DNA from: Bacillus tequilensis KCTC 13622 | Lineage (GTDB): Bacteria; Bacillota; Bacilli; Bacillales; Bacillaceae | Assembly (NCBI RefSeq): GCF_000507145.1 | Contig: NZ_AYTO01000044.1 | Location: 1 to 64,000 of the forward strand | Reading direction: 5' to 3' | DNA length: 64,000 nt | Part shown: positions 3,824-64,000 of the stretch, in pieces | Numbering within the stretch: position 1 is the first letter of the stretch | How the letters are laid out: every line of letters begins with the position of its first letter | The notes under the pieces: generated by a model | Told to the model about the DNA's origin: nothing | Database searches by the model: none | What the model saw: the letters and a program-made list of their open reading frames with translations, nothing else | Position numbers and translations under genes: made by a program

Positions 3824-3851
3824 TGAATCCGTGAAGAAAGGTGCAGATACT

Positions 3852-6800: not shown

Positions 6801-7673
6801 GTTCTCGGAGTCAACCCAATCAGTATTGATGATGACTTCTTTGCTCTTGGCGGACATTCACTAAAAGCGCTGCAAGTCATACACACATTGAAGCATCAGC
6901 AGCAAATAGACATACCGATTGATTTCTTATTCGAATATCCGACAATCGCTCAGCTTGCTGAAAAACTTTATTCTAAACAGCTGACAGCGGCAGATGAACA
7001 GCATGTGATCAAACTGAACCAGCACGGCGAGCGAAACCTTTTCTGCTTTCCGCCAATATCAGGATTTGGCATTTATTTCAAAGATCTTGCTTTATTGCTG
7101 AATGACAAGGCATTTGTCTACGGATTTCACTTTATTGAACATGACAACCGCATTGAACAATATGTCAATTACATCACGGACATACAGCCAGAAGGCCCAT
7201 ACGTGTTATTAGGCTACTCCGCAGGCGGAAACCTGGCCTTTGAAGTGGCGCAGGCGATGGAGCGCAAAGGATTGGATGTCAGTGACCTCATTATCGTGGA
7301 CGCTTATCTAAAAGAGCGGCCTTTACTTGTCGATACCGTGAATGACGAATCTGCAGTATACCTGCCTGAAGCGGTCAGGGAAAAGGTGATGAAGAAAAAA
7401 AGAAATTATCATGAATATTGGGCGCAGCTGCTGAATGAAGGGCACCTCAAAGCGAACATTCATTTCATTGAAGCTGGAATTCAAACCGAAACCAGTGAGA
7501 ATACAGGCTTAACGAAATGGAAAGGTGCCGCTTACGGAAACTACAGCGAATACACTGGTTTTGGCGCTCATAAAGACATGCTGGAAGGCACATATGCTGA
7601 AAAAAACGCTGACATCATCCTCGGCATTTTAGACAAGATCGCTTCAAATAAAGCACTGCTGCACAAACGATAA
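3852..7673 (+). CDS. ppsE: Plipastatin/fengycin synthetase PpsE (C-A-T-TE, Ile)
   Basis: Terminal fengycin synthetase, 1273 residues, close to the usual PpsE length. Start chosen at ATG 3852 (AAAGGTG upstream; 28 bases after the previous stop) because the protein then begins with the acceptor COM/C-domain segment [11 protein letters not shown]; an upstream in-frame ATG at 3798 lies inside the preceding gene. Domains: condensation (1 to about 440; HHILMDG at 146-152), adenylation (about 465-970), carrier (Ser1003 in LGGHSLK), thioesterase (about 1045-1273; nucleophile Ser1123 in GYSAGG). The A-domain pocket reads D-A-F-F-Y-G-I-T-F (first Asp 661), a known Ile code, agreeing with Ile10 of fengycin. 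The thioesterase releases the decapeptide as a Tyr3-Ile10 macrolactone in the known pathway. Confidence 0.95.
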
Positions 7674-21900: not shown

Positions 21901-35071
<13,171 letters not shown>

Positions 35072-38100: not shown

Positions 38101-41100
38101 TGCAAGCGGTTATGAGCAGGCAGAGCGCGGACAAACCATCCAGCTTCCGCAAAAAACAGATTCATTTCCATTCTGGGCTGATCAATTGTCCAAATATGCG
38201 AAAGAAACCGACATGGAAGAAGAGATTGCTTATTGGGCCGAGCTTTCAAGCACGGAGCCGCAGCCATTGCCTAAGGACAAAATAAGCGAAGGTTCATTAT
38301 TAAGAGACAGCGAAGAAGTGACGATTCAATGGACAAAAGAGGAAACGGAGCAATTGTTAAAACAAGCGAACCGCGCCTACAACACGGATATCAATGATCT
38401 GCTGCTGACTTCGTTAGGTCTCTCCGTTCACAGGTGGACGGGCATGGAAGACATTGCCGTGAATGTGGAAGGGCACGGGAGAGAACCAATTATTCCGGAT
38501 GCGGATATCTCCCGCACGATAGGATGGTTTACAAGCCAGTACCCTGTCGTCCTGAGAATGGAAGCCGGAAAAGACTTGTCACAGCGGATTAAGACCGTGA
38601 AAGAAGGGCTGCGCCGTATCCCGGATAAAGGCATGAATTACAGCATCATCAAATATGTATCCGGACATCCCGAAGCCGACATCCTGCAGCTGAATCCGGA
38701 AATATCGTTTAATTACTTGGGGCAGTTTGATCAAAACCTGAATCATCAAGCTTTGCGCATGTCGCCTTTTTCCACAGGGTTATCGATGAACGAAAACCAA
38801 GAGAGAACAGCTGTTCTTGATGTAAACGGCATGATTTCTGAAGGGACATTATCGCTGACACTGAGCTACAGCAGCAAACAATACGAAAGACCGACTATGG
38901 CGCAATTTGCACGGAACTTGAAAGAAAGTCTGCAAGAAGTCATTGCACATTGCGTAAGCCGGCAGCAGACTTCCCTCACACCAAGTGACATCCTGTTAAA
39001 AGACATCTCAATCGACGAACTGGAACAGCTTTTGGAGCAGACGCGTGAATTAGGCGAAGCGGAAAATATTTATCCATTAACGCCGATGCAGAAGGGCATG
39101 CTGTTTCACAGCTTATTTGATCCGAATTCAGGTGCTTATTTTCAGCAAACGATGTTTGATCTGCACGGAGAGTTAGACATTGATGCATTTTCAAAAAGCT
39201 TGGATGGCTTATCGCAAAAATATGATATTTTCCGGACGAATTTTTACAGAGGCTGGAAAGATCAGCCGCTGCAAATCATATTCAAAACGAAAAAGATCGG
39301 GTTTGAATTCATTGACTTACGCGAGATGAAGGAATCACAAAAAGAAGAGATGGTTCAGGAGTATGCCAGAAAAGATAAGATGCGGGGCTTCGACTTAGAG
39401 AAAGACGCATTAATGCGGCTACTCATTCTTCGTACAGCTGAAAAGACATACCGTTTTATCTGGAGTTTTCACCATATTTTGATGGACGGCTGGTGCCTGC
39501 CGCTGATTACAAAAGAAATATTCGAGCATTACTTTGCCTTGCTTCACAAAAAGCAGCCTGAACAATCGTCCATTACTCCGTACAGTCAATATATTGAATG
39601 GCTCGGCCAGCAAGATGCGAAAGAGGCCATGGCTTATTGGGATCAGTACTTGGAGGGATATGAAGAGCAAACCGGCCTCACTAAGGATCACCATGCGGCG
39701 CAAGATGAACGATACATTTCGGAGAAAGTGACATGTGAAATAAGCACTGATCTGACTTTGAAAATGAAGCAGACGGCCGGCAGACGCCATGTCACGCTGA
39801 ACACGCTGCTGCAGACGGCATGGGCGGTTTTGCTGCAGAAATATAACCGAAGCCGGGACGTTGTGTTTGGAAGTGTTGTATCCGGAAGGCCGGCTGGAAT
39901 TCCAAACGTGGAAACAATGATCGGCTTATTCATTAACACCATTCCCGTCCGGTTCAGGTGTGAAGCCGGGACAACGTTTGCCGAGCTTATGAAAGAGGCG
40001 CAGGAAAGAGCTGTAGCATCTCAACAATACGAGACACACCCGTTGTACGATATTCAAGCGCGTACAACGCAAAAGCAAGATTTAATTACACATTTAATGA
40101 TCTTCGAAAATTATCCTGTTGATCAGTATATGGAGAGCATTGGCCGGCAAAACGGATCATCCATCACCATTTCCAACGTACAAATGGAAGAGCAGACCAA
40201 CTATGATTTTAATATGACCGTTATACCGGGCGACGAGATGAACATCTCTTTTGAATACAATGCCAATGTGTATGAGCGGGCAAGCATAGAGCGGGTTCGG
40301 GAACATTTCATGCAAATCCTGCAACAGGTCGTGACAGATCCGGATATCCGGGTGGATCAAGTAGATTTGTTAACGGAAAGTGAAAAAAGAACCCTTCTGC
40401 GGACGCTTAACGACACGGCAGCGCCATTTCCGCAGACGCCGGTACATCAATTATTTGAAGAGCAATCGCAACGTACGCCCGATCAAGCAGCCGTCATTGA
40501 AAAGGACAGGCAGCTCACGTACGGAGAGCTCAATAAGCGGGCAAACCGTCTGGCGCGAACGTTAAGAGCGAAAGGAGTGCAGACGGATCAGCCTGTAGCC
40601 ATCATCAGCAGAAACAGCATCGAATCGGTGGTCGGAATCCTTGCCGTTTTAAAATCAGGCGGCGCCTACGTCCCAATAGATCCGGAATATCCGCAAGACC
40701 GTATGCGATATATGCTGGATGACTCCGAAGCCGGAATCGTTTTAATGCAGCGAGATATCAGGAAACAGCTTGCCTATGAAGGCGTCACGGTTTTACTTGA
40801 TGATGAAAGTTCTTATCACCAAGATGACTCTGACCTTGCTCCGATAAGTGATGCGAGCCATTTGGCATATGTCATTTATACGTCAGGCTCTACAGGCCGG
40901 CCAAAAGGCGTACTAATCGAGCACCGCGGCTTGACTAATTATATTTGGTGGGCGAAAGAGGTTTATGTAAAAGGTGAGAAAACCAACTTCCCGTTGTACT
41001 CGTCCATCTCTTTTGATCTGACGGTGACTTCTATTTTCACACCGCTTGTCACAGGCAATGCAATCATCGTCTATGACGGAGAGGATAAAACAGCTCTGCT

Positions 41101-44100
41101 TGAATCGATTGTGCACGACCCGCGGGTGGATATCATCAAATTGACTCCGGCCCATTTGCAGGTTTTGAAAGAAATGAACATTGCCGATCAAACGGCAGTC
41201 CGAAGAATGATTGTGGGCGGGGAAAATCTAAGCACCCGGTTAGCCCGCAGCATTTATGAACAGTTCGAAGGCCGGATTGAAATATGCAATGAGTACGGGC
41301 CGACGGAAACCGTTGTCGGCTGCATGATTTACCGTTACGATGCCGCAAAGGACAGGCGGGAATCGGTACCGATCGGAACCGCTGCGGCAAATATGAGCAT
41401 TTATGTGCTGGATGAGAATAGGAAACCCGCACCGATCGGAGTTCCGGGAGAGATCTATATCAGCGGGGCAGGTGTGGCAAGAGGGTATTTGAACCGTCCC
41501 GAATTAACGGCAGAGAAATTTGTCGATGACCCGTTTGAACCCGGAGCTAAGATGTATAAGACCGGAGATTTGGCGAAGTGGCTGGCTGACGGGAACATTG
41601 AATATGCGGGCAGAATAGATGAACAAGTGAAAATCAGAGGCTACCGTATCGAATTAGGCGAAATCGAGGCGGCACTGCTTCAAGAAGAAGCGGTCAAGGA
41701 AGCGGTCGTTACAGCAAGAGTTGACGCCCACGGGTTTAAACAATTGTGTGCATATTACGTGAGCGGCGGGCAAACAACGGCAGCCCGGCTCCGCAAACAA
41801 TTGTCTCACAGCCTGGCGGGTTATATGGTTCCGGCTTATCTTATCGAGCTTGATGAAATGCCTTTAACGTCTAACGGAAAAATAAACAGAAAAGGACTGC
41901 CGGCTCCGGATTTCGAGCTGCAGGACAGAGCAGAGTATAAAGCTCCCCGAACAAAAACGGAAGAAATATTAGTTTCTGCCTGGGAATCGGTATTAGGCGC
42001 AGAGAATGTCAGTATTCTTGATAATTTCTTTGAACTTGGCGGAGATTCCATTAAGTCAATCCAAGTGTCATCCAGATTAAAACAGAGCGGATACAAAATG
42101 GAAATCAAAGACTTGTTTCAATATGCTACGATTGCCGAATTGAGTCCGCATATCAAGCAGAATCTGCGTACAGCCGATCAAGGTGAGGTCAAAGGAAAAG
42201 TCAGCCTGACTCCTATTCAGCATTGGTTTTTTGAACAAACAACAATAGATCCGCATTATTATAATCAAGCCGTCATGCTGCATGCGCCGGAAGGTTTTCA
42301 GGAAACGCCGCTTCGTCAAACCCTGCAAAAGATAGCAGAACATCACGATGCGCTCCGGATGACGTTCCAGACTGCGGAAAAGGGTTACGAGGCACATCAT
42401 GCAGAGATCGCCCAAAGCGGACTGTACAACCTTGAAGTCCTGAACCTGAAAGCAGAATCCGATCCGGGGCAGACCATTGAAGCCAAGGCTGATGAGATAC
42501 AAAGCAGTATGCATTTAAGTGATGGCCCGTTAATGAAAGCCGGATTGTTTCAATGTGCAGATGGAGATCATTTGCTCATCGCCATCCATCATTTGATTGT
42601 AGACGGGGTGTCATGGCGCATTTTACTGGAGGATCTCGTGACCGGCTACAGGCAAGCCGAGAACGGGCAAGTGATTCAACTGCCGCAAAAAACAGATTCT
42701 TTCCAATTGTGGGCCAAAAAGCTTTCAGAATATGCGCAAAGTGAAACGATAAAACAAGAACAGGAATATTGGACAAAGATCGAACAGACCGATGTCAAAC
42801 CGCTGCCTACAGATTTTCAGGAAACCCATACAACTGCAAAAGACAGTGAAACAGCAACTGCGGAATGGACGAAAGAGGAAACGGAGCTCTTATTAAAACA
42901 AGCGAATCGCGCTTATAACACAGAAATAAATGATTTGCTTTTAACTTCTCTTGGTCTTTCTATATCCCATTGGTCGGGGCTTGACCGGATTCCGATTCAT
43001 TTAGAGGGACACGGAAGAGAACAGATCATTCAAGATATGGATATCTCCCGCACGGTCGGCTGGTTTACTAGTCTGTATCCGGTTGTGCTGCACGCGCAGC
43101 CAGGCAAAGAAATCTCTGATTATATCAAAACGACCAAAGAAGGACTGCGCCAAATTCCGCATAAAGGGATCGGATATGGAATAGCAAGGTACTTAAGCGG
43201 CGGAATGCCATCGAAACTCAATCCTGAGATCAGCTTTAACTACCTGGGACAGTTTGACCAAGATTTACAGCAGCATGGGGTTCAATTATCTTCTTATTCA
43301 TGCGGTTCAGACTCAAGCGGAAATCAAGAAAGACCGTATGTATTGAATATAAACGGAATGATAACCGAGGGCCGGCTGAAGCTTACGATCAGCTACAGCA
43401 GCAAGCAGTACGCAAAAGAAACGATCATGCGGTTATCGGAAACGATTCAAAGCCGCCTGCGGACAATCATTACGCATTGCGTTCAGAAAGAACAAATTGA
43501 ACTGACGCCAAGCGATATTTTGTTAAAAGGCATGACCATTGAAGAATTGGATCAGCTTCTTATTCAGCTGCCGCATGCAGGTGAGATTGAAAACGTGTAT
43601 CCGCTCACTCCGATGCAGAAAGGAATGCTCTTCCACAGCTTGCTGGATGAGGACTCACATTCTTATTTTGAACAAGCATCGTTCGATTTGCAGGGAGAGT
43701 TAAAGATTGATTGGTTTAAAGAAAGCCTTGAACGATTATTTGAAACATACGCCGTGCTCAGAACCCGTTTTCACAGCGGCTGGAACGATACTCCTTTACA
43801 AATTGTCTATAAAACGCAAAAACCGCAAATTCATTTTGCAGATTTGCGTGACATAGAGGAGCACCGGCGTGAGGATGCAATCGCAGCCTATCAAAGAGAA
43901 GACAAGGCAAAAGGATTTGACTTGGCTCGCGATCCCCTGATGCGCATAGCGATTTTCCGTATGGAAGACCGCAACTATCATTTGATTTGGAGCTTCCATC
44001 ATATTGTGATGGATGGCTGGTGTCTGCCTCTTATCACAAATGAAGTGTTTGAGCATTATAACGCCTTACTAGAAGGAAGGGAAACTGAACAGCCGTCAGC

Positions 44101-47100
44101 AGCTCCTTACAGCGACTATATCGAATGGCTTGACCGCCAAGATCAAGGTGCGTCCAAACGGTACTGGAGCGGTTATCTTGAAGGATACAAAGGTGAAACC
44201 CGGATTCTTCATAAAACGCCGCAGCATGAACAAAAAGAATACGCTTATGCCAATGTGATCTGCCAATGTGATCACGAACAGACAAAACAATTACAGCAGA
44301 TCGCAAATCAGCATCAGGTTACGTTAAATACGTTGATCCAAACGTTGTGGGGAATTTTGTTACAGAAATACAGCGGGTCCGCAGACGTTGTATTTGGCAG
44401 TGTCGTGTCGGGAAGGCCGGCGGAAATTCCTGATGTGGAACAGATGATCGGCCTGTTCATCAATACCATTCCGGTTCGGGTCTGCTGCGATGAGACCAGC
44501 TCTTTTGCTGATACGATGCAAATGGTTCAACAAAAGGCTTTGGCTTCCCAATCGTACGATACCTATCCTTTATACGAAATTCAGGCACAAACGGAACAAA
44601 AGCAGAACCTGATTGACCATATCATGATCTTTGAAAACTATCCGATAGGACAGCAGGTCGAAGAGACGGGACATCATGATACGGAACTGAACATCACGAA
44701 TTTTCATATGCAGGAACACTCCCATTATGATTTGAATGTGGTTGTCATACCAGGCGAACAGCTGTCCGTTCATTTCGGTTTTAATGAAAACGAATATGAA
44801 AAATCAGAAGTCGAACGGCTCTGCGGACATTTTGAACAGCTCATGCAGCAAGTATTACAGCAGCCGTCTGTCAAAATAGAAGAATTGGAGCTTCTCTCTC
44901 AGCAAGAAAAAGAACACATGCTCAGCCATCTTCAGTCTGGCGACATGCAATACCAGCGTGAACAAACGATTCATGAGCTGTTTGAGGAACAAGCGCATCG
45001 TACGCCGAATCATATTGCAGTTGTATACGAGGGTAAACAATTAACCTACGGAGAACTGAATCGGCGTGCCAATCAGCTTGCGCGAACCTTGCAGGCAAAA
45101 GGTGTGCGGACGGATCAGCTTGTCGGCATTATGACTGAACGCTCGCTTGAGATGATTGTAGGCATCTTAGGAGTTTTAAAAGCAGGCGGCGCATATTTGC
45201 CGATAGATCCTGATTCTCCGTCTGAACGCATCCGTTATATTTTAAATGATTCAAGCATCAGCGTATTGCTTTACAGCGGGAAGCTTCCGGATGATATCGG
45301 CTTCTCAGGAACATGTATCGATCTCATGGAGGAACGTTTCTATCACGAAAAAGACAGCAGTCTTGCACTCTCTTATCAGTCCAGTCAACTGGCCTATGCC
45401 ATTTATACTTCCGGCACGACAGGCAAGCCTAAAGGCACGTTAATTGAACATCGCCAGGTCATTCACCTGATTGAAGGGCTTCGACGCCAAATTTACTCTG
45501 CCTACGATGCGGAGCTGAATGTAGCCATGCTCGCTCCATATTATTTCGATGCTTCTGTTCAGCAAATGTATGCTTCCTTGCTGTCAGGCCATACCTTGTT
45601 TATTGTTCCGAAAGAGATTGTGTCAGACGGTGCTGCCTTATGCCGTTACTATCGGCAGCATTCGATTGACATCACTGACGGAACACCTGCCCACTTAAAG
45701 CTTTTGATAGCTGCAGGTGATTTGCAGGGAGTCACGCTTCAGCATCTTTTAATCGGAGGAGAGGCTCTTTCCAAAACGACGGTAAATAAGCTCATACAAT
45801 TATTCGGCGATCATGGCGTTACGCCTGGGATTACCAATGTATATGGGCCTACGGAGACTTGCGTAGACGCGTCTCTGTTCAATATTGAATGTTCTTCCGA
45901 TGCTTGGGCACGCAGCCAAAGCTATGTCCCTATAGGCAAGCCGTTAGGCAGAAACCGCATGTACATTCTTGATTCAAAAAAACGGCTGCAGCCGGCGGGC
46001 GTCCAAGGCGAGCTGTATATTGCAGGGGACGGTGTCGGGCGGGGTTACTTGAACCTGCCGGAACTGACGGACGAAAAATTTGTTGCCGATCCGTTTGTAC
46101 CGGCGGACCGAATGTACAGAACCGGTGATCTGGCCCGCCTTCTGCCGGATGGAAATATTGAATATATCGGCCGGATTGATGATCAGGTGAAAATTCAAGG
46201 TTTTCGGATTGAACTCGGTGAAATCGAATCGGTGATGCTGAACGTTCCTGATATTCAAGAAGCCGCCGCAGCTGCCCTTAAAGATGCAGATGATGAATAT
46301 TACTTGTGCGGATACTTTGCTGCGGATAAGACAATACAGATCAGTGAACTTCGCGAAAGAATGGCCCGGCATTTACCGGGATATATGATCCCGGCTCATT
46401 TTGTTCAGCTGGATAAGATGCCGCTGACGCCAAACGGGAAGTTGAATCGCCAGTTATTGCCGGCTCCGGTCAAAAAGCGTGACAGCGGCATAGAGTACGT
46501 CCCGCCGCAAACTTCGGCAGAAATCCAGCTGACAGCAATTTGGGAGGAGGTTCTCGGATTAGAGCAGGTGGGGATCAGAGATCACTTTTTTGAGATCGGC
46601 GGACACTCCCTGCGGGCAACGGCGCTGATTGCAAAAATACAAAAGCAAATGCATGTCCAAATTCCTTTGCGGGCCGTCTTCCGTTTCCCAACCATTGAAC
46701 AGCTCGCGCGGACGATCACGAAGACGGAGCTGACCGGATATACCGCGATTCCTGTAATTGAAAAAAGACCTTATTATCCGGTATCCTCAGCACAAAAACG
46801 GTTGTACATCCTTAATCACTTGGAAGGCGGAGAACTCAGTTACAACATGCTGGGCCTGATGGCTGTGGAAGGAAAGCTTGATCGTGACAAGCTGCAGCAA
46901 GCCTTCCGCACGCTGATTTTGCGCCATGAATCTTTGCGCACCGGTTTTAAAATGGCTGACGGAGAACCTGTCCAGTATGTCTTGGATCACGCAGCGTTTG
47001 AAGCAGAGTGGTACCAAGGGGAAGATGATGATGCGGACCTTTATATCCGCCAATTTATTCGTCCTTTTCACCTGGATGAGCCGCCGCTGCTTCGCGTGGG

Positions 47101-50100
47101 GCTGATTGAACTTCAACCTGACTGCGGAATTCTGATGTTTGATATGCACCATATTATTTCTGACGGAACATCCATGAGCGTATTGATTAAAGAATTTATC
47201 CGGATTTATGAAGGAGAGACATTACCGCCCCTTCGCATCCAGTACAAGGACTACGCAGTATGGCAGACCGGCGAAGCGCGGTTAAAACAGATCCAAAATC
47301 AAGAAGCCTATTGGTTAGAGCTGTACAGCGGCGACGTTCCTGTCCTTCATCTGCCGACCGATTATATCCGGCCGTCGGCACGGGATTTTGCGGGAGCCAC
47401 AATGCAGTTTACGCTTGATAAGCAAAAAAGCGCCGGATTAAAGCAGCTGGCATCCCAAACCGAATCGACTTTATATATGGTGCTCCTTGCGTCTTATACA
47501 TTATTGCTTTCAAAATACAGCGGCCAGGAAGACATTATTGTCGGCAGTCCTATAGCGGGAAGACCGCACGCCGATTTGGAACCGATTATCGGAATGTTTG
47601 TGAATACACTGGCCATGAGAAATTACCCTGAAAAAGGGAAGACGTTCTCTCAGTATCTGTCCGAGGTGAAGGAGAATGCATTAAAAGCTTATGAGCATCA
47701 AGATTATCCGTTCGAAGCGCTGATCGATCAACTGAATATCGCCAGAGACTTGAGCCGTAATCCATTGTTTGACACCATGTTTGTGCTTCAAAACACGGAG
47801 CAGGAACAGTTAGAGATAAATGACGTCACTTTCAAACCATATCCAAACGGACATACGATGGCTAAATTTGATTTAACCTTAACGGCTGTGGAAGAAGAGT
47901 CGGGTATTCAGTTCACGATGGAATACTTGACGGCTCTGTTTAAACCGGAAACGATCGAACGCATGATGGGGCATTTTGTGCAGCTGATTGATTCGATTAT
48001 TAAACAGCCTGATGCCGAGCTGGCTCGTCTGAATATGATGACCAAGGAAGAGGAAAGAGACATTCAGCAACTCTTTAACGATACTGCAGTTGCGGAAAAA
48101 CGAATTCCAACTACGGTTCATCAGCTTTTTGAGCAGCAGGCTGAGCTTAACCCGGATCATGAAGCCGTCCGGTTTGGAAATCAGACGCTGACTTATCGTC
48201 AGCTGAATGAACGCTCCAATCAGCTGGCTCGCGTCCTTCAAGATAAAGGTATTGGCACTGATCAGGTGGTTGCCGTTCTCACGGATCGCTCAGCAAATAT
48301 GATCATCGGCATTTTAGCCATATTAAAGGCGGGCGGAGCATTTCTACCTATCGATCCCGAACTTCCTGATGAACGGCGGGCTTTTATGCTGAAAGACAGC
48401 GGCGCCAGTGTGCTTTTGTCTGGCGCAGGTTATGCCATTCCGACGCTCTTTAAAGGGGAAGTGCTTCTGCTTGATGATCCGATAATATATCAAGGCAGAG
48501 CAGACAATCTTAATCTTTCCTGCTCGGAAAATGATTTAATGTATGTTATTTACACGTCAGGCACAACGGGGCAGCCGAAAGGCGTTCAGCTGGAGCACAA
48601 GACCATGACGAATCTGCTCGCTTATGAGCAGGCTCATACGCCGCTTCACTTTGACAGAGTACTGCAATTTGCCGCAATGAGCTTTGATGTCTGCTATCAA
48701 GAAATGTTCTCCGCGCTTTCAAGTGGAGGAACACTCTGTATCATCAGCAATGAGGCAAAACGGGAAATACGCCAGCTCAATGAATTTGTCAAAATGCACA
48801 GGATACAAACAGCATTTCTTCCGACCGCGTTCCTTAAGCTTCTTGCCTCGGAGAGACACTATTTCGAACCATTTGCCGAGTGCGTGGATCACATCATCGC
48901 TGCGGGAGAACAGCTCATCGCAACAAGGATGCTGCGTGACATGCTGGCGCGCCACCAAGTCACATTGCATAATCATTACGGTCCGTCGGAGACGCATGTT
49001 GTGACCATGTATACCGTCGATCCTGATACAAATCAGGAGATTCAGCCGATCGGCAAACCGATTTCAAATACGGAGATTTTCATTTTGAATGAAGCCGGAA
49101 CGCTTCAGCCTGTCGGAATCGTCGGTGAACTTTGTATTTCAGGAGTGAGCCTGGCCAGAGGCTATCATAACAGGGAGTCTTTGACGCTCGAAACTTTTGT
49201 TCCCCACCCATATGACTCGAATCAACGGATGTATAAAACAGGCGATCTGGCTCGTTACCTTCCCGACGGAAACATTGAATATGCAGGAAGGAGAGACCAT
49301 CAGGTCAAAATTCGCGGTTACCGGATTGAACTCGGCGAGGCGGAAGCCGCTCTGCTGAGCCTCGAGCATGTACAGGAAGCAGTCGTTCTGTCCAGAGAAA
49401 ATGCAGATGGCCAAAGCGATTTATATGCCTATTTTACAGCGGAGCAATCACTCTCGATCAGTCAGCTGAAAGAAAAACTTGCTGGCCAAATACCGGGATA
49501 CATGATCCCTTCATACTTCATCCAGCTGGAGAAACTGCCGCTAACCGGCAATGGAAAAGTAAATCGAAGAGCATTACCGATGCCTGAAGCAGGTTTGCAA
49601 ACGGGAACCGACTACGTTGCTCCGCGGACGAATATGGAAGAGCAGCTGATATGCATCTGGCAAGACGTTTTGAAGGTAAAAGAAATAGGTGTAAAAGATA
49701 ACTTTTTCGATTTGGGCGGCCACTCGTTGCGGGGGATGACACTCATCGCCAAAATTCATAAGCAATTCAGCAAAAACATTTCATTAAGAGAAGTCTTTCA
49801 ATGTCCGACAGTTGAGGAAATGGCAAAGGCAATTGCAGGAGCTGAAACCAACGGGCCGGATTACATTCCGAAAGCCAAAGCAAAAGATGTCTATCCTGTA
49901 TCGTCCGTACAGAAAATGGTTTACCTGTCAACACAAATAGAAGGTGGAGAACTGAGCTACAATATGCCGGGAATCCTTACATTAGAAGGAAAACTCGACA
50001 TGAATCGCTTGCAAACCGCTTTCCAAAGACTGATCCAGCGTCATGAATCGCTGCGTACCGGTTTTGAAATGGTCCGCGGAGAACTGATGCAGGTGATCAA

Positions 50101-51211
50101 ACCGCAAGTGGAGTTTTCGATGGAAAGATACAAGGCAACAGCTGACGAGGTTGAGGAATGTTTCCGCACCTTCGTGCGGCCGTTCGATCTCAGCCAGGCT
50201 CCATTACTCAGGGCCGGACTCATCGAGTTAGAACAAGACCTGCATATTTTCATGTTTGACATGCACCACATCATCACGGACGGCGCCTCCATGAACATTT
50301 TTGTCGAAGAACTGATTCAATTGTATGACGGCAAAGAGTTAGCTCCGCTCCGTATTCAGTACAAAGACTTTACGGAATGGAAACATCAAAAAGAACAGAG
50401 AGAACGAATCAAGAAGCAGGAAGAGTATTGGCTTGGTGTATTTCATGAAGAGCTCCCGTCATTCGAGCTTCCGAAAGATTTTGCGAGACCGCCGGTTAGA
50501 AGCTTTGATGGGAAAAGGCACAATTTTACGCTCGATAAGACTGTCACCCAAGGGATAAAGCAGCTGGAAGAATTGACCGGAACGACCGCTTACATGATTT
50601 TGTTCTCGGCCTATTCCATACTGCTGGCAAAATACAGCGGTCAAGATGATATCGTCGTCGGCACACCTATTGCGGGGAGACCGCATGCGGATTTGGAACC
50701 CATTATCGGAATGTTTGTCAATACATTAGCCATCCGCACCGCTCCGATGGCGGAAAAGACATTTTTGGATTATATAACTGAAACGAAAGAAACCATGCTG
50801 AAGGCTTTTGAACATCAAGAGTATCCTTTTGAAGAATTAGTTGAAAAACTGGGTGTAAAACGGGACTTAAGCCGCAATCCATTGTTTGATACGATGTTTG
50901 TCCTGCAAAATACGGAACATACGGATATTGAAGTGGACTCTCTCGCAGTCAGACCTTATGAACAAACGGAGACGGCAGCCAAGTTTGATTTACAGCTGAA
51001 CTTCTTAATAGATCAAGATGAGATTCAGGGCAGTTTTGATTACTGTACAAAACTGTTTAAAAAGAAAACCATTGCTGTATTGGCCAAGGATTACGTCATG
51101 ATCCTTTCGGCGATTATGAGAAACCCATCCATTCCTTTAAAAGACATTCAATTAAGCGAAAAAGTAAACAAAAGGAAACATCTCGCAAGCACAATCGAAT
51201 TGGATTTCTAA
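35117..51211 (+). CDS. mycB: Iturin-family NRPS, second subunit (Tyr-Asn-Gln-Pro; MycB/ItuB type)
   Basis: 5364 residues, four modules; GAGGTG ribosome site before ATG 35117. It opens with only the C-terminal lobe of a condensation domain (1 to about 260, no HHxxxDG); the full C domain sits at the end of MycA. Module 1: A code D-A-L-S-V-G-E-V-V (Asp456; Tyr), carrier Ser799, epimerase HHLVIDG at 979. Module 2: C (HHILMDG 1452), A D-L-T-K-I-G-E-V-G (Asp1967; Asn), carrier Ser2311, epimerase HHLIVDG at 2491. Module 3: C (HHIVMDG 2961), A D-A-Q-D-L-G-V-V-D (Asp3478; Gln), carrier Ser3831. Module 4: C (HHIISDG 4011), A D-V-Q-F-I-A-H-V-V (Asp4524; Pro), carrier Ser4870. A final C domain (HHIITDG 5050) serves the next subunit. 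Predicts D-Tyr2, D-Asn3, L-Gln4, L-Pro5, common to iturin A, mycosubtilin and mojavensin. Ends in TIELDF. Confidence 0.96.
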
Positions 51212-51299: not shown

Positions 51300-54200
51300 G
51301 TGTCAGAATTCAAACAACAGGAGTTGTTCTGGGGCCGAATGTTTCACACGGAAGACCGTCCTAGTGCATTCCCTTCGTTTCAAATGTCCGACTCAACAGT
51401 AAAGCGTGATGCAGCGAGTGGATCTGACTGTATTCACAGTTCATTGAGTGCGGATGTATCACGGCGCATCCTGTCCATGACGAACCAAACGCCAATGGCC
51501 GTCTATCTGGTTCTCCTGATCGGAATTGAATCTCTGCTGTACAAATACACAGGAGAAGAGAACGTAATTACAGGGATTCCAACCTTTGAAGACGAAACTG
51601 ATGAAGATTTTCGTTTAGAACAGCTCATGTTAATCAAGCAGAATATCAATGCCGACAGTACGTTTAAATCGATATTCCACGAACTGAAACATACGCTGGA
51701 CGAAGCAATCTTATATCAGGACGTTCCCTTTGAAAAAATGGCCGGACAGCTGCAGCTGAACTATAATAAAAATCATTTGCCGATCATCAATACGGTTGTT
51801 TCATTAGAGCAAATTCATTCTGATCGTTTCATAGAAACGGCTGCTGCAGATGCTTTGTTTCAGTTTGCTATGGGGGAAGACTCGATAAATGTAAAGTTAT
51901 GTTTTAATGAACAAGCTTATGACCGCGAGTATATGATACAGGTGATCGGGCATTTAAATCGTCTATTTTCTATCATGTTATTCCAGCCCGACCTCACTCT
52001 CGGCCAAGTGGATATCTTGTCTGAAGCGGAGACTAATACTTTTCTCGCTGACTATCATCATACGAAAACTGAATATCCGCGGGATAAGACGATTTATCAG
52101 TTATTCGAAGCACAGGTGAAACGAACACCGGATCAACCAGCCATTATTTGCGGAGAAAAGCAATTCACGTATCGCCAGCTCAATGAACGCGCCAATCAAT
52201 TAGCCCGAACCTTGAGGGCCAAGGGCGTTATGGCGGACCGGCTCACCGCCGTCATCAGTGAACACAGCATCGAACTGGTTGTGGGAATACTGGCCGTATT
52301 AAAAGCGGGAGGGGCCTATGTGCCAATTGATCCGGATTATCCGAAGCATCGCATACAGTATATAGTAGAAGACTCCCAAGCTGATATCATCCTGACGCAG
52401 AGCCATCTTCAAAAACAGTTGGAACTTGCGGGCACAATGGTTTTCCTCGATCAGGAAAGCTCTTACCACGAAGACGGCTCTGACCTGGAACCGATCAGCA
52501 GTACGAAGGATTTGGCTTATGTCATTTATACGTCAGGCTCCACAGGCAAGCCTAAAGGAGTGGCAATTGAGCATCAGGGCTTAACCAATTATATTTGGTG
52601 GGCCCGCCGGGTCTATGTCAAAGGGGAAAAAACCAACTTTCCCCTATATTCGTCCATCGCTTTTGATCTGACGATAACGTCTGTTTTCACTCCGCTCATT
52701 ACAGGAAATTCCATTATTGTCTACAGAGGAGAAAACAGTGCTGCCTTGCTTGATTCCATTATTCAGGATTCAAGGACGGATATTATCAAACTGACCCCGG
52801 CGCACTTGCAGTTATTGAAAGAGATGAATATCCCTGCTGAGTGCACCATTCGGAAATTCATTGTCGGCGGTGACAATTTAAGCACGCGGCTCGCCCGAAG
52901 CATCAGCGGGAAATTCGGCGGAAAAATCGAAATTTTTAACGAATACGGGCCTACAGAGACAGTCGTCGGCTGTATGATTTATTCCTTTGATCCGCAAAAC
53001 GACAGACGGGAATCAGTGCCGATCGGAACCGCCGCGGACAACATGAACATTTTCGTGCTGGATAAGAGCATGAAACCGGTGCCGGCCGGCGTCCCGGGAG
53101 AAATCTATATCAGCGGGGACGGCATCGCCAGAGGATACTTGAACAGAGCGGAATTAACAGCGGAAAGATTTTTGCAGCACCCCTTTGTGCCAGAGGTGAA
53201 AATGTACCGGACGGGAGATTTAGCAAGGCGGCTGCCGGACGGAAATATCGAATATTTAGGCCGGATCGACCACCAGGTGAAAATCCGCGGTTACCGCATT
53301 GAAATCGGGGAAGTCGAATCCGCATTTTTCCAAATACCGCCGATTCAAGAAGCTCTCGTTATGGCACAAGAAACCAACGGGGAAACATCCTTGTGCGCCT
53401 ATTATACCGCACAGCATTCTTTAACCGCAGGCGAAATTCGGGAGCACCTGTCCCGGCAGCTTCCGTCCTATATGATCCCTGCTTATTTTGTACAGCTGGC
53501 AGCGATGCCGCTTACTTCCAACGGAAAAATAGATCGTCAGGCGCTGCCTGCTCCAACGGGAAATCTCACTGGCAATCCCTATACAGCTCCGCGGACAGAA
53601 CTGGAAAAAATACTGGCCGGGGTGTGGGAATCCGTATTAGGCGCCGAACAGGTCGGAATCGATGATCATTTCTTTGAGCTGGGAGGAGATTCGATTAAGT
53701 CGATTCAGGTGACCTCAAGCTTATATCAAGCCGGGTATAAGCTTGACATCAAACACTTGTTCAAACACCCGACGATCTCCGGGCTTGCTCCTTTTATTGA
53801 GCCCGTTACCCGAATCGCAGAACAAGGGGAGATCAAAGGCCGTACCTTATTGACGCCGATTCAGCATTGGTTTTTCGCCCGGCAATACCCTGATCCGCAC
53901 CATTATAATCAATCTGTCATGCTTTATTTTAAAGAGGGGTTGGACGAATCGAAGCTTCAGAAAGTCATGAAGAAGATTGCCGAGCATCACGATGCTTTGC
54001 GCATGGTCTATGTTCAGGGAGATCATGAATACGAAGCCAGAACCCGCGGGATCAGTGAAGGAGAATTATTCACCCTCGACGTGTTCTCTTTACTCGAAGA
54101 AAACAACCCTGCCGAAACGATAGAAACGATAGCAAATGACATTCAGCAATCCATCCATTTAGCCGATGGACCGCTCATGAAACTGGGATTGTTTCAATGT

Positions 54201-57200
54201 CAGGATGGCGATCATTTGCTGATTGCGATTCATCATCTGGTTGTAGATGGCGTATCGTGGAGGATTTTACTTGAGGATATAACGTCAGCTTATGAGCAGC
54301 TCCAAAACGGAGAAGCGCTCACGCTCCCTAAGAAGACGGATTCCTATCTGTTATGGGCTGAACGATTGAAACGTTATGCAGAAAGTCCGGAATTTGAAGC
54401 AGAAAATCAATATTGGCTTGAGCAGAGACATATCTCGCAACACAAATTGCCAAAGGACAATGAGCAGGAGACCGGTCTGGCCGAAGACCGGGAAACGATC
54501 ATCGTCCAATGGACAGAGGAAGAAACCGAGCGTTTATTAAAAAAATCGAACCGGGCCTATACGACTGACATTAATGATTTATTGCTGACCGGACTCGGAA
54601 TGGCTGTTCATCGCTGGACGGGGCATGAAGAAATTCATGTTCATCTGGAAGGACACGGCAGGGAATCTATTTTTCAAGACGTTGATATCTCACGTACGGT
54701 GGGCTGGTTCACAACCCAATACCCGGTTTCTCTTCAAATCCAGGCGGACCGGGACATCTCCCAGTGGATTAGGACGGTGAAAGAACAGCTGCGTCAGATT
54801 CCCCAAAAAGGAATAGGATATGGCCTGATGAAATATTTGACCGATCATCCGAAGGCATCAGAATGGACCGGACATCCGGAAATCAGCTTCAATTACCTCG
54901 GACAATTTGATCAAGATTTCGAAAATGGAGGAATCGAAGTATCTCCTTACTCCGGAGGGAAAATTGCGAGCGACAGGCATCCCATTGCCTATACGCTTGA
55001 CATTAACGGCATGATCTCAGACGGCCGGCTGTCATTGGCCATTAGTTACAGCGGTAAACAATATCGAAGAGAAACGATGGAAACATGTGCAGCTCTCTTA
55101 AAGAACAGCCTAAAAGAAGTCATCGAACATTGCGCAGCTCAAGAAGACATTCACCTGACGCCAAGCGATATCTCGCTGAAGGACATAACAATCGAGGAAT
55201 TAGATCAATTTGTTCAGCAAACACAGCATATCGGCGAGATTGAAAATATATATCCTTTAACTCCCATGCAGAAAGGTATGCTGTTCCACAGTTTAATCGA
55301 TTCGTCTTCCAGAGCTTACTTTGAACAAGCCGCTTTTGATCTCAAAGGCGACTTGGATATCGAGGCATTTTCAATGAGTTTGTCACAGCTGGCGGAAAGA
55401 CATGAGATTCTCCGGACTCATTTTTATACGGAATGGAAAGATCAGCCTTTACAGATCGTATTCCGAAAAAAACCGATCGAAATAACTGTTGAAGATATTC
55501 GAAGCATGAAGAATAAACAACGAAACGAGTTCATTGCCAGCTTTGTACAAAAAGATAAGGCAAGAGGATTCGACCTTATCCAAGATTCGTTAATGCGCGT
55601 ATCAATCCTTCGTACAGAGGATGACCAAGTCCGATTGATATGGAGCTTCCATCATATTTTAATGGATGGCTGGTGTCTGCCTCTTATTACGAAAGAAGTG
55701 TTTGAAACCTATTATGAACTTCTTGAGAGAAGAAAACCGGAGCGGGAAGCCGTCACCCCGTACAGCCGGTATATCGAATGGCTGGAAGATCAGGATCATC
55801 AGAACGCTTCAGCCTATTGGCAAAAATATTTGGACGGTTATGAAGGACAAACCGTTTTACTGAAAGAACCTGTCTCAAACCAAGCCAAGGGATATCAAAA
55901 ACAAATGCTTGCATGCCGTCTCGGAAAGCAGCTATCAGAAGAAATCAGACAGACTGCAAGCAAGCATCACGTCACCGTGAATACGTTCATTCAAAGTGCG
56001 TGGGGACTATTGCTGCAAAGATACAACAACAGTCAGGACGTCGTTTTCGGGTCGGTTGTATCCGGACGCCCGGCAGAAATTCCGGGGATTGAATCCATGG
56101 TCGGCTTATTTATTAACACCATTCCCGTACGTATTACCGCTCAGCCTGGAATGACTGTGGAACAAGTGTTGAAAATGAGCCAGGAGCAGGCATTGGCTTC
56201 TCAAGGGTATGATACATTTCCGTTGTATGAAATTCAGGCTCAAACCGAACAAAAGCAGCAGCTGATCAGTCATATTATGGTATTTGAAAATTATCCGGTC
56301 GAGAAACAAATGGAGCATATGAAACCGAATCGTGACGCGCTGGACATTATCAATTTCCATATGGAAGAGCATACCCATTACGATTTCAATTTCATTGTCA
56401 TGCCCGCGGGAGAAATCGACATTCATTTTGTATACAATAGCAACGTCTATGATCATGCAAGTGTCGAACGGATGCAGACGCATTTCATACAAATCATGAA
56501 GCAAATGGCGGACGATCAGGACATTCGCGTTCAAGACCTTGAGATATTAACAGCGGATGAACGATCGCTCCTGATAGACAAGTTCAATGATACGGCGGCA
56601 GAGTATCCAAAGGAAAAGACGATTAATCAATTGTTTGAAGAACAAGCGGAGCGGACGCCGGAGCAAGTGGCGATTGTTTTTGAAGATGAGAAACTAACGT
56701 ATCGACAGCTCAATGAACGGGCTAATCGATTAGCTCGAACATTAAGGGCCAATGGGTTGCAAGCGGACCGGCTCACAGCCATCATCAGCGATCATAGCAT
56801 CGATCTGGTTGTGGGAATACTGGCTGTATTAAAAGCCGGCGGCGCCTACGTACCTATTGATCCGGATTATCCGAAGCACCGCATACAGTATATATTAGAA
56901 GATTCCAAAGCCGAGATTGTCTTGACACAGTACCATCTTCGGCAGAGATCAGCACATGCGGGCACAATCGTTCTCTTAGATGAGGAAAGCTCTTATCACG
57001 AAGAGCATTCTAATCTTGAGCGGACCAGCGATGCGAAGGATTTAGCGTATGCGATTTATACATCTGGCTCGACAGGCAATCCCAAAGGCGTACTAATAGA
57101 GCATCGAGGCTTAACCAATTATATTTGGTGGGCTGCCAAGGTATATGTCAAGGGGGAAAAAGCCAACTTCCCACTGTACTCCTCCATCGCTTTCGACTTA

Positions 57201-59117
57201 ACGGTAACATCTATCTTCACACCGCTCGTAAGCGGCAATGCCATCATAGTCTTCGGAGGAGAAGACAGGGCTGCCTTGCTTTCATCTATTGTACGGGATT
57301 CCAGAGTAGATATTATCAAGCTGACTCCCGCTCATTTGCAGTTATTACATGAAATGGACATTCCACATGAGTGCAGGATCCGGAAACTGATTGTAGGCGG
57401 CGACAATTTAAGTGTGAGGCTGGCCCGGAGCATCAGCGAGCAATTTCAAGATCAAATTGAAATCTTTAACGAATACGGGCCAACGGAAACGGTCGTCGGA
57501 TGTATGATTTATTCCTTTGATCCGCAGAAAGACAGACGAGAATCGGTGCCAATCGGTACGGCCGCGGCCAATATGAATATTTATGTGCTGGATGCGGGGA
57601 TGAAGCCGGTGCCGATCGGCGTTCCCGGAGAAATATACATTAGCGGGGCCGGCATAGCCAGAGGATATTTGAACCGCCCGGGATTAACGGCCGAGAAATT
57701 TGTTGAACACCCGTTTGCCGCAGGCGAAAAAATGTACAAAACGGGAGATGTCGCCCGATGGCTTCCCGACGGTAATATCGAGTATTTGGGAAGAATTGAT
57801 CATCAGGTGAAAATCCGGGGCTACCGGATTGAAATTGGCGAGGTCGAAGCGGCTTTATTGCAACTGGAATCTATCAAAGAAGCAGTTGTCATCGCGATTG
57901 AAGAAGAGGGCTCAAAGCAGCTGTGCGCTTACTTGTCAGGAAACGAGTCATTAAATACGGCGCAGCTGAAGCGTCATTTGCTGAACAAACTGCCCGCGTA
58001 TATGATTCCGGCTTATTTTGTACAAATAGAGAAGATGCCGATAACCGCTAATGGAAAAGTCGATCGAAAAGCTTTGCCGGCTCCTGAGGGAAATAGGCTT
58101 ACCGGAACCGAATACGCAGCGCCCGGAACGTTAATTGAAAAGCAGCTGGCCGATATATGGAAGGATATTTTAGCTCTCAGTGACCCGGGAATTAAAGATC
58201 ACTTCTTTGACGTTGGCGGCCATTCACTTAAAGTATTGCAGCTCATTCATCAAATTAACGCCGATATGGGAGTCAACATGCATTATCAAGCCGTATACGA
58301 TTTTCCTACCATCGAAACAATGGCACGCGCCATTCAAGCGGCAGTTTTCGAATCCAAGACGGATCATAACGTATTCGTCAAGCTGAACCAGGAAGATTCA
58401 ATCCCTGTGTTCTGTTTCCCGCCTTTAATTGGGTATGGACTCGTTTATCATGAAATGGCAAAAAGACTTGACGGCGGTTGCACTGTCTATGCGGCTGATT
58501 TCTTAGAAGAGACGTCTCATGAGAAAGAGATCGTTGACCGGTATGCAGAAAGCATGATACGCATTCAGGAACAAGGGCCTTTTGTTTTGCTTGGTTACTC
58601 TTCGGGATCGAATTTGGCTTTTGAGGTTGCTAAAGCTTTGGAGAAGCGGGAACGCACCGTATCTGATGTGATTATGCTGGATTCTAAAATAACCACTTCG
58701 GTAACTCATTTATCGGAAGAGGAAATCGAAGAGATCGTCCATCTGAATATGGACATTATCCCTGACTATTACAGAGAAATATTAACCATTCCTTCGATTA
58801 AGGATAAAATCAGAGGCTACCTTGCGTATCACAATGAACTGATCAATTCGGGCGCCGTCAACGCCAACATCCATCATTTGCTATGCGGTGATGTAACCGA
58901 TAGAGGATGGACGCAATCAACAGCACAGCATTATTTTGAGTACAAATTAAAAGGAGATCATGTGACGATTTTTGAACCACATAATATTGAAGAAAATGTG
59001 GATGCGATCCGATCTATTATCAAAAGAATTGAAGAACGGAATAACCAAGGACGTCTTCTTGAAGAACAACTGTCAATGGGATCGTTTGCGGGAAACACAA
59101 AGTTTGACAAAATGTAA
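51300..59117 (+). CDS. mycC: Iturin-family NRPS, terminal subunit (Asn-Asn, thioesterase; mojavensin-like MycC)
   Basis: 2605 residues. Start is GTG 51300 with TGGAGGG upstream; MSEFKQQELFW matches the beginning of MycB. Order: condensation C-lobe only (1 to about 250); A1 with code D-L-T-K-I-G-E-V-G (Asp456; Asn); carrier Ser798 (GGDSI); epimerase HHLVVDG at 978; condensation HHILMDG at 1451; A2 with the same Asn code (Asp1966); carrier Ser2309 (VGGHSLK); type I thioesterase with Ser2434 in GYSSG, LDSK Asp region and GDH histidine. Iturin A has Asn-Ser here, mycosubtilin Ser-Asn, bacillomycin D Ser-Thr; Asn-Asn gives D-Asn6-L-Asn7, the pattern I recall for mojavensin A. The two A domains are more alike each other (both VGGDNLS) than the Asn domains of MycA/MycB (VGGENLS). 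The thioesterase closes the ring onto the beta-amino group. Confidence 0.94.
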   Translation: MSEFKQQELFWGRMFHTEDRPSAFPSFQMSDSTVKRDAASGSDCIHSSLSADVSRRILSMTNQTPMAVYLVLLIGIESLLYKYTGEENVITGIPTFEDETDEDFRLEQLMLIKQNINADSTFKSIFHELKHTLDEAILYQDVPFEKMAGQLQLNYNKNHLPIINTVVSLEQIHSDRFIETAAADALFQFAMGEDSINVKLCFNEQAYDREYMIQVIGHLNRLFSIMLFQPDLTLGQVDILSEAETNTFLADYHHTKTEYPRDKTIYQLFEAQVKRTPDQPAIICGEKQFTYRQLNERANQLARTLRAKGVMADRLTAVISEHSIELVVGILAVLKAGGAYVPIDPDYPKHRIQYIVEDSQADIILTQSHLQKQLELAGTMVFLDQESSYHEDGSDLEPISSTKDLAYVIYTSGSTGKPKGVAIEHQGLTNYIWWARRVYVKGEKTNFPLYSSIAFDLTITSVFTPLITGNSIIVYRGENSAALLDSIIQDSRTDIIKLTPAHLQLLKEMNIPAECTIRKFIVGGDNLSTRLARSISGKFGGKIEIFNEYGPTETVVGCMIYSFDPQNDRRESVPIGTAADNMNIFVLDKSMKPVPAGVPGEIYISGDGIARGYLNRAELTAERFLQHPFVPEVKMYRTGDLARRLPDGNIEYLGRIDHQVKIRGYRIEIGEVESAFFQIPPIQEALVMAQETNGETSLCAYYTAQHSLTAGEIREHLSRQLPSYMIPAYFVQLAAMPLTSNGKIDRQALPAPTGNLTGNPYTAPRTELEKILAGVWESVLGAEQVGIDDHFFELGGDSIKSIQVTSSLYQAGYKLDIKHLFKHPTISGLAPFIEPVTRIAEQGEIKGRTLLTPIQHWFFARQYPDPHHYNQSVMLYFKEGLDESKLQKVMKKIAEHHDALRMVYVQGDHEYEARTRGISEGELFTLDVFSLLEENNPAETIETIANDIQQSIHLADGPLMKLGLFQCQDGDHLLIAIHHLVVDGVSWRILLEDITSAYEQLQNGEALTLPKKTDSYLLWAERLKRYAESPEFEAENQYWLEQRHISQHKLPKDNEQETGLAEDRETIIVQWTEEETERLLKKSNRAYTTDINDLLLTGLGMAVHRWTGHEEIHVHLEGHGRESIFQDVDISRTVGWFTTQYPVSLQIQADRDISQWIRTVKEQLRQIPQKGIGYGLMKYLTDHPKASEWTGHPEISFNYLGQFDQDFENGGIEVSPYSGGKIASDRHPIAYTLDINGMISDGRLSLAISYSGKQYRRETMETCAALLKNSLKEVIEHCAAQEDIHLTPSDISLKDITIEELDQFVQQTQHIGEIENIYPLTPMQKGMLFHSLIDSSSRAYFEQAAFDLKGDLDIEAFSMSLSQLAERHEILRTHFYTEWKDQPLQIVFRKKPIEITVEDIRSMKNKQRNEFIASFVQKDKARGFDLIQDSLMRVSILRTEDDQVRLIWSFHHILMDGWCLPLITKEVFETYYELLERRKPEREAVTPYSRYIEWLEDQDHQNASAYWQKYLDGYEGQTVLLKEPVSNQAKGYQKQMLACRLGKQLSEEIRQTASKHHVTVNTFIQSAWGLLLQRYNNSQDVVFGSVVSGRPAEIPGIESMVGLFINTIPVRITAQPGMTVEQVLKMSQEQALASQGYDTFPLYEIQAQTEQKQQLISHIMVFENYPVEKQMEHMKPNRDALDIINFHMEEHTHYDFNFIVMPAGEIDIHFVYNSNVYDHASVERMQTHFIQIMKQMADDQDIRVQDLEILTADERSLLIDKFNDTAAEYPKEKTINQLFEEQAERTPEQVAIVFEDEKLTYRQLNERANRLARTLRANGLQADRLTAIISDHSIDLVVGILAVLKAGGAYVPIDPDYPKHRIQYILEDSKAEIVLTQYHLRQRSAHAGTIVLLDEESSYHEEHSNLERTSDAKDLAYAIYTSGSTGNPKGVLIEHRGLTNYIWWAAKVYVKGEKANFPLYSSIAFDLTVTSIFTPLVSGNAIIVFGGEDRAALLSSIVRDSRVDIIKLTPAHLQLLHEMDIPHECRIRKLIVGGDNLSVRLARSISEQFQDQIEIFNEYGPTETVVGCMIYSFDPQKDRRESVPIGTAAANMNIYVLDAGMKPVPIGVPGEIYISGAGIARGYLNRPGLTAEKFVEHPFAAGEKMYKTGDVARWLPDGNIEYLGRIDHQVKIRGYRIEIGEVEAALLQLESIKEAVVIAIEEEGSKQLCAYLSGNESLNTAQLKRHLLNKLPAYMIPAYFVQIEKMPITANGKVDRKALPAPEGNRLTGTEYAAPGTLIEKQLADIWKDILALSDPGIKDHFFDVGGHSLKVLQLIHQINADMGVNMHYQAVYDFPTIETMARAIQAAVFESKTDHNVFVKLNQEDSIPVFCFPPLIGYGLVYHEMAKRLDGGCTVYAADFLEETSHEKEIVDRYAESMIRIQEQGPFVLLGYSSGSNLAFEVAKALEKRERTVSDVIMLDSKITTSVTHLSEEEIEEIVHLNMDIIPDYYREILTIPSIKDKIRGYLAYHNELINSGAVNANIHHLLCGDVTDRGWTQSTAQHYFEYKLKGDHVTIFEPHNIEENVDAIRSIIKRIEERNNQGRLLEEQLSMGSFAGNTKFDKM

Positions 59118-63299: not shown

Positions 63300-64000
<701 letters not shown>

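Follow-up and report, generated by a model that had tools for sequence, protein, structure and literature searches.

We conclude that the locus analyzed here, very probably from Bacillus tequilensis, encodes a complete iturinic lipopeptide synthetase of the mojavensin type, and we put the probability of this reading, in which the product itself is predicted from the genes, at roughly 0.93. The window, that is, the whole stretch of 64,000 nt that was analyzed, comprises positions 1-64,000 of contig NZ_AYTO01000044.1 of Bacillus tequilensis KCTC 13622 (genome of 3.98 Mb in 50 contigs).

Gene organization and predicted peptide

Four consecutive open reading frames (ORFs) on the + strand, none of which has internal stops, correspond to fenF, mycA, mycB and mycC and form an intact iturin-family synthetase:

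21901-23103, + strand: fenF/ituD-like malonyl transacylase, 400 aa (ORF; TIGR00128 fabD, 327 bits against a curated cut-off of 260.9)
23123-35071, + strand: mycA, 3982 aa, with acyl ligase, ACP, KS, aminotransferase, C, A1 (Asn), T, C (Pfam, pocket, motifs; acyl ligase from NCBIfam matches below cut-off)
35117-51211, + strand: mycB, 5364 aa, with A2 (Tyr) T E, C A3 (Asn) T E, C A4 (Gln) T, C A5 (Pro) T, C (ORF, pockets, motifs)
51300-59117, + strand: mycC, 2605 codons, with A6 (Asn) T E, C A7 (Asn) T TE (ORF, Pfam, pockets, TE motif)

This is the layout of the iturinic family, namely a transacylase and three synthetases with one, four and two amino acid modules. The mycC frame runs uninterrupted from a GTG start at 51300 to its end at 59117, and Pfam models detected a pair each of AMP-binding and carrier domains, three condensation-type domains and a single thioesterase (TE) domain in MycC, whose TE serine motif GYSSG lies at aa 2432. 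The hybrid starter part expected of iturinic synthetases (fatty-acyl ligase, KS and aminotransferase) was found in MycA, where KS and a class III aminotransferase were detected by Pfam and the fatty acyl-AMP ligase model NF006624 matched aa 4-556 with 410 bits, under its cut-off of 600; a family-specific model was absent among the best 25 NCBIfam matches.

On the 5' side, the cluster is preceded by acyl-CoA metabolism genes and by synthetase ORFs 80-3823 and 3798-7673, which presumably form the last part of a plipastatin/fengycin operon (ppsD/ppsE), and it is followed on the 3' side by GH43 and GH30-like glycosidase genes, the former presumably being xynD. In PMC8546965, xynD is used to delimit iturin clusters. 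Near the contig end, ORF 63300-63998 contains collagen-like GPTG/GATG repeats.

That the strain carries an intact cluster but fails to express or activate it is very unlikely; all four ORFs are open, and a candidate phosphopantetheinyl transferase gene, an Sfp-like open frame of 233 codons, is present elsewhere in the genome.

To read the pockets of the adenylation (A) domains, 68 such domains were aligned with MAFFT, drawn from the window and 12 relatives (13 clusters with MycC in all). In this alignment, nine pocket columns were set on the motifs of the window's own domains and then checked against relatives with published products. The GrsA numbering and specificity tables, which we assumed to apply, were used to translate pocket letters into amino acids; GrsA (1amu) was among the matches of the PDB search (E 3.2e-128), as was linear gramicidin synthase A. 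In modules 2 and 5, the last pocket letter sits one alignment column further right. P. terrae yielded no domain under the extraction rules and was dropped from the pocket alignment, and module 7 of B. inaquosorum, B. velezensis and ISL-51, which carries a different A4 motif (FDFSVWE), was missed by the A3 pattern and stands outside the pocket table, with module 7 being read in 10 of the 13 clusters. The window gave the following readings:

Module 1: pocket DLTKIGEVG, Asn
Module 2: pocket DALSVGEVV, Tyr
Module 3: pocket DLTKIGEVG, Asn
Module 4: pocket DAQDLGVVD, Gln
Module 5: pocket DVQFIAHVV, Pro
Module 6: pocket DLTKIGEVG, Asn; AMP-binding core of A6 at 52104-53141, + strand, D235 equivalent at aa 456
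Module 7: pocket DLTKIGEVG, Asn; AMP-binding core of A7 at 56634-57671, + strand, D235 equivalent at aa 1966
Epimerase motif of module 6: HHLVVDG at 54231-54251, + strand (motif search)

The tenth pocket residue, the A10 lysine in NGK, is present in all seven A domains. Where iturin A- or mycosubtilin-type synthetases take Ser, the identical columns hold DVWHFSLID or DVWHFSLVD, which argues that the Asn-type readings are not due to chance. Modules 1-3 read Asn-Tyr-Asn, the first three residues of iturinic peptides, and modules 4-7 read Gln4, Pro5, Asn6 and Asn7, as in mojavensin. Iturin A would call for Ser7, but module 7 carries DLTKIGEVG and not DVWHFSLID; mycosubtilin would call for Ser6, but DLTKIGEVG is also the pocket of module 6; and bacillomycins D, L and F would call for Thr7, which bacillomycin D carries, but module 7 reads Asn. 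Nevertheless, a minor side product would be compatible with these pockets.

With regard to stereochemistry, 11 HHxxxDG motifs were found. The three that follow modules 2, 3 and 6 are of the epimerase type, HHL[VI][VI]DGVSWRILL, with LTPIQHWFF upstream. The C domains directly after these three motifs (n=3) carry a motif of 13 residues, four other C domains carry YPVSSxQ or YPTSPAQ, and the eleventh HHxxxDG, at aa 2083 within the MycA starter region, is accompanied by neither type. Read in the usual meaning of the two C-domain motif types, the epimerase motifs and the C domains following them suggest the order L, D, D, L, L, D, L, with D residues at positions 2, 3 and 6 as in mojavensin.

The calculated [M-H]- of the C15 form with Asn at every Asn position is 1082.5640, and mojavensin A was reported with [M-H]- 1082.5617 and the formula C50H77N13O14 (PMC8877463). 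Calculated [M+H]+ values of the C14, C15 and C16 forms are 1070.563, 1084.579 and 1098.594, compared with 1043.55, 1057.57 and 1071.58 for the Ser-containing iturin A or mycosubtilin series, so that homologues of differing chain length in the two series are separated by roughly 1 Da. For the Asn-Tyr and Asn-Tyr-Asn fragments, Dunlap 2019 gives m/z 278.11 and 392.15 (PMC6693446). The predicted peptide is identical at positions 2 to 7 to the mojavensin A of the table in PMC12206863, which prints L-Asp at position 1; since C50H77N13O14 fits Asn1 together with a C15 beta-amino acid, Asn rather than Asp is preferred at this position.

An earlier note on this DNA had proposed an Asn6-Asn7, mojavensin-type synthetase instead of one for iturin A, mycosubtilin or bacillomycin, which the pockets of modules 6 and 7 support. 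The seven residues that it listed (Asn; Tyr, Asn, Gln, Pro; Asn, Asn) were obtained again by alignment, its DLTKIGEVG for both MycC domains was confirmed among the 68 domains, and the residues to which it pointed, around 456 and 1966 of the mycC product, are exactly the D235 equivalents, where the pocket alignment gives Asn at both sites rather than Ser or Thr. Epimerase motifs were likewise found where it had placed the domains, after Tyr2, Asn3 and Asn6, and its full prediction of L-Asn, D-Tyr, D-Asn, L-Gln, L-Pro, D-Asn, L-Asn as mojavensin A agrees with pockets and motifs alike.

In the proposed pathway, MycA would load and elongate a fatty acid, install the beta-amino group and add Asn1, MycB would add D-Tyr2, D-Asn3, Gln4 and Pro5, and MycC would add D-Asn6 and Asn7, after which its thioesterase would close the ring.

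Relatives with published products and previously described clusters

The same columns were applied to relatives. Positions 6-7 read Asn-Asn in B. halotolerans, B. swezeyi and the genome designated G019, Asn-Ser in B. siamensis, the genome designated G017, B. nakamurai and SKDU12, and Ser-Asn in B. spizizenii and B. atrophaeus. For the iturin of B. nakamurai, residue 7 is presumably Ser. In the text of Dunlap 2019 (PMC6693446), B. halotolerans and B. swezeyi are given as mojavensin producers, B. nakamurai as an iturin producer, and B. spizizenii and B. atrophaeus as mycosubtilin producers; our readings agree in five of five single-product species, compared at the species level with strains that sometimes differ. 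The product of B. atrophaeus is given as iturin A in PMC12206863 and as mycosubtilin in PMC6693446 and PMC8546965; its Ser-Asn pair sides with mycosubtilin. Substrate prediction was reported by Dunlap 2019 to be correct for 101 of 105 iturinic modules (PMC6693446).

G019 is a second genome with Asn6-Asn7 pockets, and its mycA fragment is 98.5% identical to that of B. halotolerans. The mycA gene of B. halotolerans ATCC 25096 (positions 34000-50500 of contig C10 of that genome), a confirmed mojavensin producer (PMC8877463), is split into two ORFs in different frames, which reflects either a sequencing error or a broken gene.

The product class and the kind of cluster are already known, and the cluster is very probably known from B. 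tequilensis, too. The earlier note had considered the mojavensin gene cluster less well described, a view that does not hold: the clusters of B. halotolerans and B. swezeyi were described, together with MS/MS, in Dunlap 2019 (PMC6693446), and the cluster is also covered by work on B. halotolerans (PMC8877463). Its attribution of mojavensin A to B. mojavensis needs to be corrected as well, as Dunlap 2019 assigned such producers to B. halotolerans (PMC6693446). In the text of the same study, iturin, the bacillomycins and mycosubtilin are confined to species other than B. tequilensis, for which mojavensin is therefore left by elimination (PMC6693446).

Compared to the mojavensin A cluster of B. 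halotolerans (Dunlap 2019, PMC8877463), the window has the same gene order and the same seven pockets, and in both the cluster adjoins a fengycin/plipastatin cluster, as stated in PMC8877463 for B. halotolerans and as judged here from ORF names that we assume; however, nucleotide identity to B. halotolerans is 88-96% per 1 kb at 23-59 kb, and the window is mostly nearer to B. siamensis. The mycosubtilin synthetase belongs to the same family and has an orthologous Asn7 A7 core (82.9% identity for B. spizizenii and 89.2-89.3% for B. atrophaeus), whereas its module 6 is of the Ser type. Paenilarvin of Paenibacillus larvae, compared by its published description, has an identical heptapeptide according to Dunlap 2019, but comes from another genus and has another alkyl chain length (PMC6693446).

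Relationship to B. siamensis and probable transfer of the cluster

The nearest relative over most of the cluster is the iturin A-type synthetase of B. siamensis KCTC 13613, with 91-99% nucleotide identity per 1 kb at 24-56 kb. For a 5.4 kb mycA fragment, whose limits were chosen to mimic those of Table 1 in Dunlap 2019, identities were 90.3 to B. velezensis, 97.0 to B. siamensis, 90.1 to G017, 85.0 to B. nakamurai, 90.6 to B. halotolerans, 90.7 to G019, 80.0 to B. spizizenii and 90.3 to B. inaquosorum. The B. tequilensis row of that table, in the same order, reads 90.6, 97.7, 89.7, 84.9, 90.5, 90.6, 80.6 and 90.5 (PMC6693446). All eight comparisons agree within 0.75 points, out of a row of 11 columns in which G017 was set against the B. 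amyloliquefaciens column and G019, on account of its 98.5% identity to B. halotolerans, against genomospecies 1, and the B. atrophaeus and B. swezeyi columns were left out. B. tequilensis is therefore the very probable source of the window. The B. halotolerans row of the table was reproduced within 1.0 point in seven of seven comparisons, which we take as the error of the method, and this row does not fit the window. An origin from B. halotolerans was rejected, as the mycA fragment is 90.6% identical to that species and 97.0% to B. siamensis.

As a control, a single stretch of 6 kb from another part of the genome was compared; its identity is 97% with B. spizizenii, B. inaquosorum and G019, 96% with B. 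halotolerans and 92% with B. siamensis. The 97% identity of mycA to B. siamensis, set against 92% in the control stretch, points to a transfer of the cluster, as the table of Dunlap 2019 also implies. A plasmid-borne cluster is unsupported, as the best plasmid match also has parC, parE and spore-protein genes. This match, NZ_CP154897.1 (67504-115353), is a B. amyloliquefaciens record labeled as a plasmid that carries iturin-type synthetases along with those genes and looks like a chromosomal contig.

The similarity to B. siamensis is interrupted at several places. At 23-24 kb, the nearest relatives are B. halotolerans, G019 and G017, not B. siamensis; at 36-37 kb, the nearest is B. inaquosorum; the A cores of modules 2 and 3 are nearest to B. 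inaquosorum and B. velezensis; and MycC aa 81-360 (51540-52379) is 92-100% identical to B. halotolerans per 40 codons versus 82-93% to B. siamensis. Among the seven A domains, the pocket differs from that of B. siamensis in A7 only. Several exchanges thus shaped the cluster, the other mosaic stretches being without pocket change.

Exchange of the module 7 A core

In 1 kb steps, identity to B. siamensis falls to 84% and 78% at 56-58 kb and returns to 94% at 58 kb, whereas B. halotolerans and G019 hold 91-94% at 56-58 kb. The segment concerned is:

56457-57896, + strand: part of mycC where near-identity to B. siamensis breaks (10- and 40-codon identities)

The part that distinguishes Asn from Ser proper begins near 56667. 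In a codon alignment, in which the A7 core was taken as aa 1790-2130 and MycC outside the A cores as aa 1-230, 640-1700 and 2215-2605, the window is 95.4% identical to B. siamensis outside the A cores and only 50.8% in the A7 core, where B. siamensis has the Ser-type pocket DVWHFSLID. The corresponding values for B. halotolerans are 91.2% and 93.7-94.3%, and G019 reaches 94.3-95.0% in the A7 core. The left junction, 56457-56666 (aa 1720-1789), has its closest counterparts in B. velezensis (87-100% per 10 codons) and B. inaquosorum; at the right junction, approximately aa 2120-2199, the window is as close to B. halotolerans as to B. velezensis.

The phylogenetic trees of the two parts conflict, with the window and B. 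siamensis grouped at 100/100 in the backbone tree and the six Asn7 rows grouped at 100/100 in the A7 core tree. The AU test rejected the window plus B. siamensis in the A7 core (p 7e-94, in a tree with long branches) and the window plus B. halotolerans plus G019 in the backbone (p 8e-6), both groups having been named after the pattern had been seen. As far as the sequences tell, the Asn7/Ser7 difference from B. siamensis is the exchange of one A core, and a recent common ancestor of most of this synthetase and the iturin A-type synthetase of B. siamensis is the best explanation of the backbone. We infer that the exchange took place by homologous recombination in one of the two lineages.

Two other readings of module 7 were weighed. 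Outside the A cores, MycC shares 95.4% identity with its counterpart in an iturin A-type synthetase, which might suggest that iturin A or a mixture is made, with A7 also taking Ser; this is highly improbable, as the A7 core differs strongly from Ser7 domains (50.8% to B. siamensis) but resembles the Asn7 domains of B. halotolerans and G019, and its pocket is that of the other Asn domains. Equally improbable is that Asn7 arose recently by duplication of another Asn domain within the cluster, such as module 6 onto module 7: although the protein tree places Asn-type module 7 beside module 6 of B. nakamurai and B. swezeyi and not beside modules 1 and 3, module 7 of the window is only 76.4% identical to its own module 6 versus 93.7-94.3%, 94.3-95.0% and 89.2-89.3% to module 7 of B. 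halotolerans, G019 and B. atrophaeus, respectively, and, being nearer to module 7 of other species, is an orthologous Asn7 domain.

Either lineage may have changed its A7 core: Asn7 and Ser7 are scattered over the backbone tree, and the nearest A7 relative among the rows compared is at 94% for the window and 90% for B. siamensis. Between B. siamensis and G017, identity is 89.8% for the Ser7 cores and 90.4% for the backbone, and a recent donor is thus apparent for neither lineage. It is likely that the clusters of the window and B. siamensis form a natural pair with a closely related backbone, whose predicted peptides differ only at residue 7, through a single A7-core exchange whose ends lie in the C-A linker region and near motif A8, and that, as part of the same reading, one lineage switched from iturin A to mojavensin, or from mojavensin to iturin A, while keeping its C, T and TE domains.

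Recombination in NRPS genes, including iturinic ones, was reported to affect mostly the A core (PMC8097286), a rule that the module 7 exchange fits. The main text of that paper, figure 4 apart, names neither mojavensin nor bacillomycin nor mycosubtilin. This type of exchange is already reported in iturinic clusters, and we do not claim the module 7 exchange as unreported.

Neither the product assignment nor the exchange should surprise specialists, as this is an ordinary route of cluster change. The product class is antifungal and of use in plant protection, and the present reading fixes which member is expected from this strain. The comparison with B. siamensis shows sites of A-domain replacement in nature, which is useful for enzyme redesign, and, if the reading is true, the pair would be useful to test whether the identity of residue 7 matters to the last C domain and to the thioesterase.
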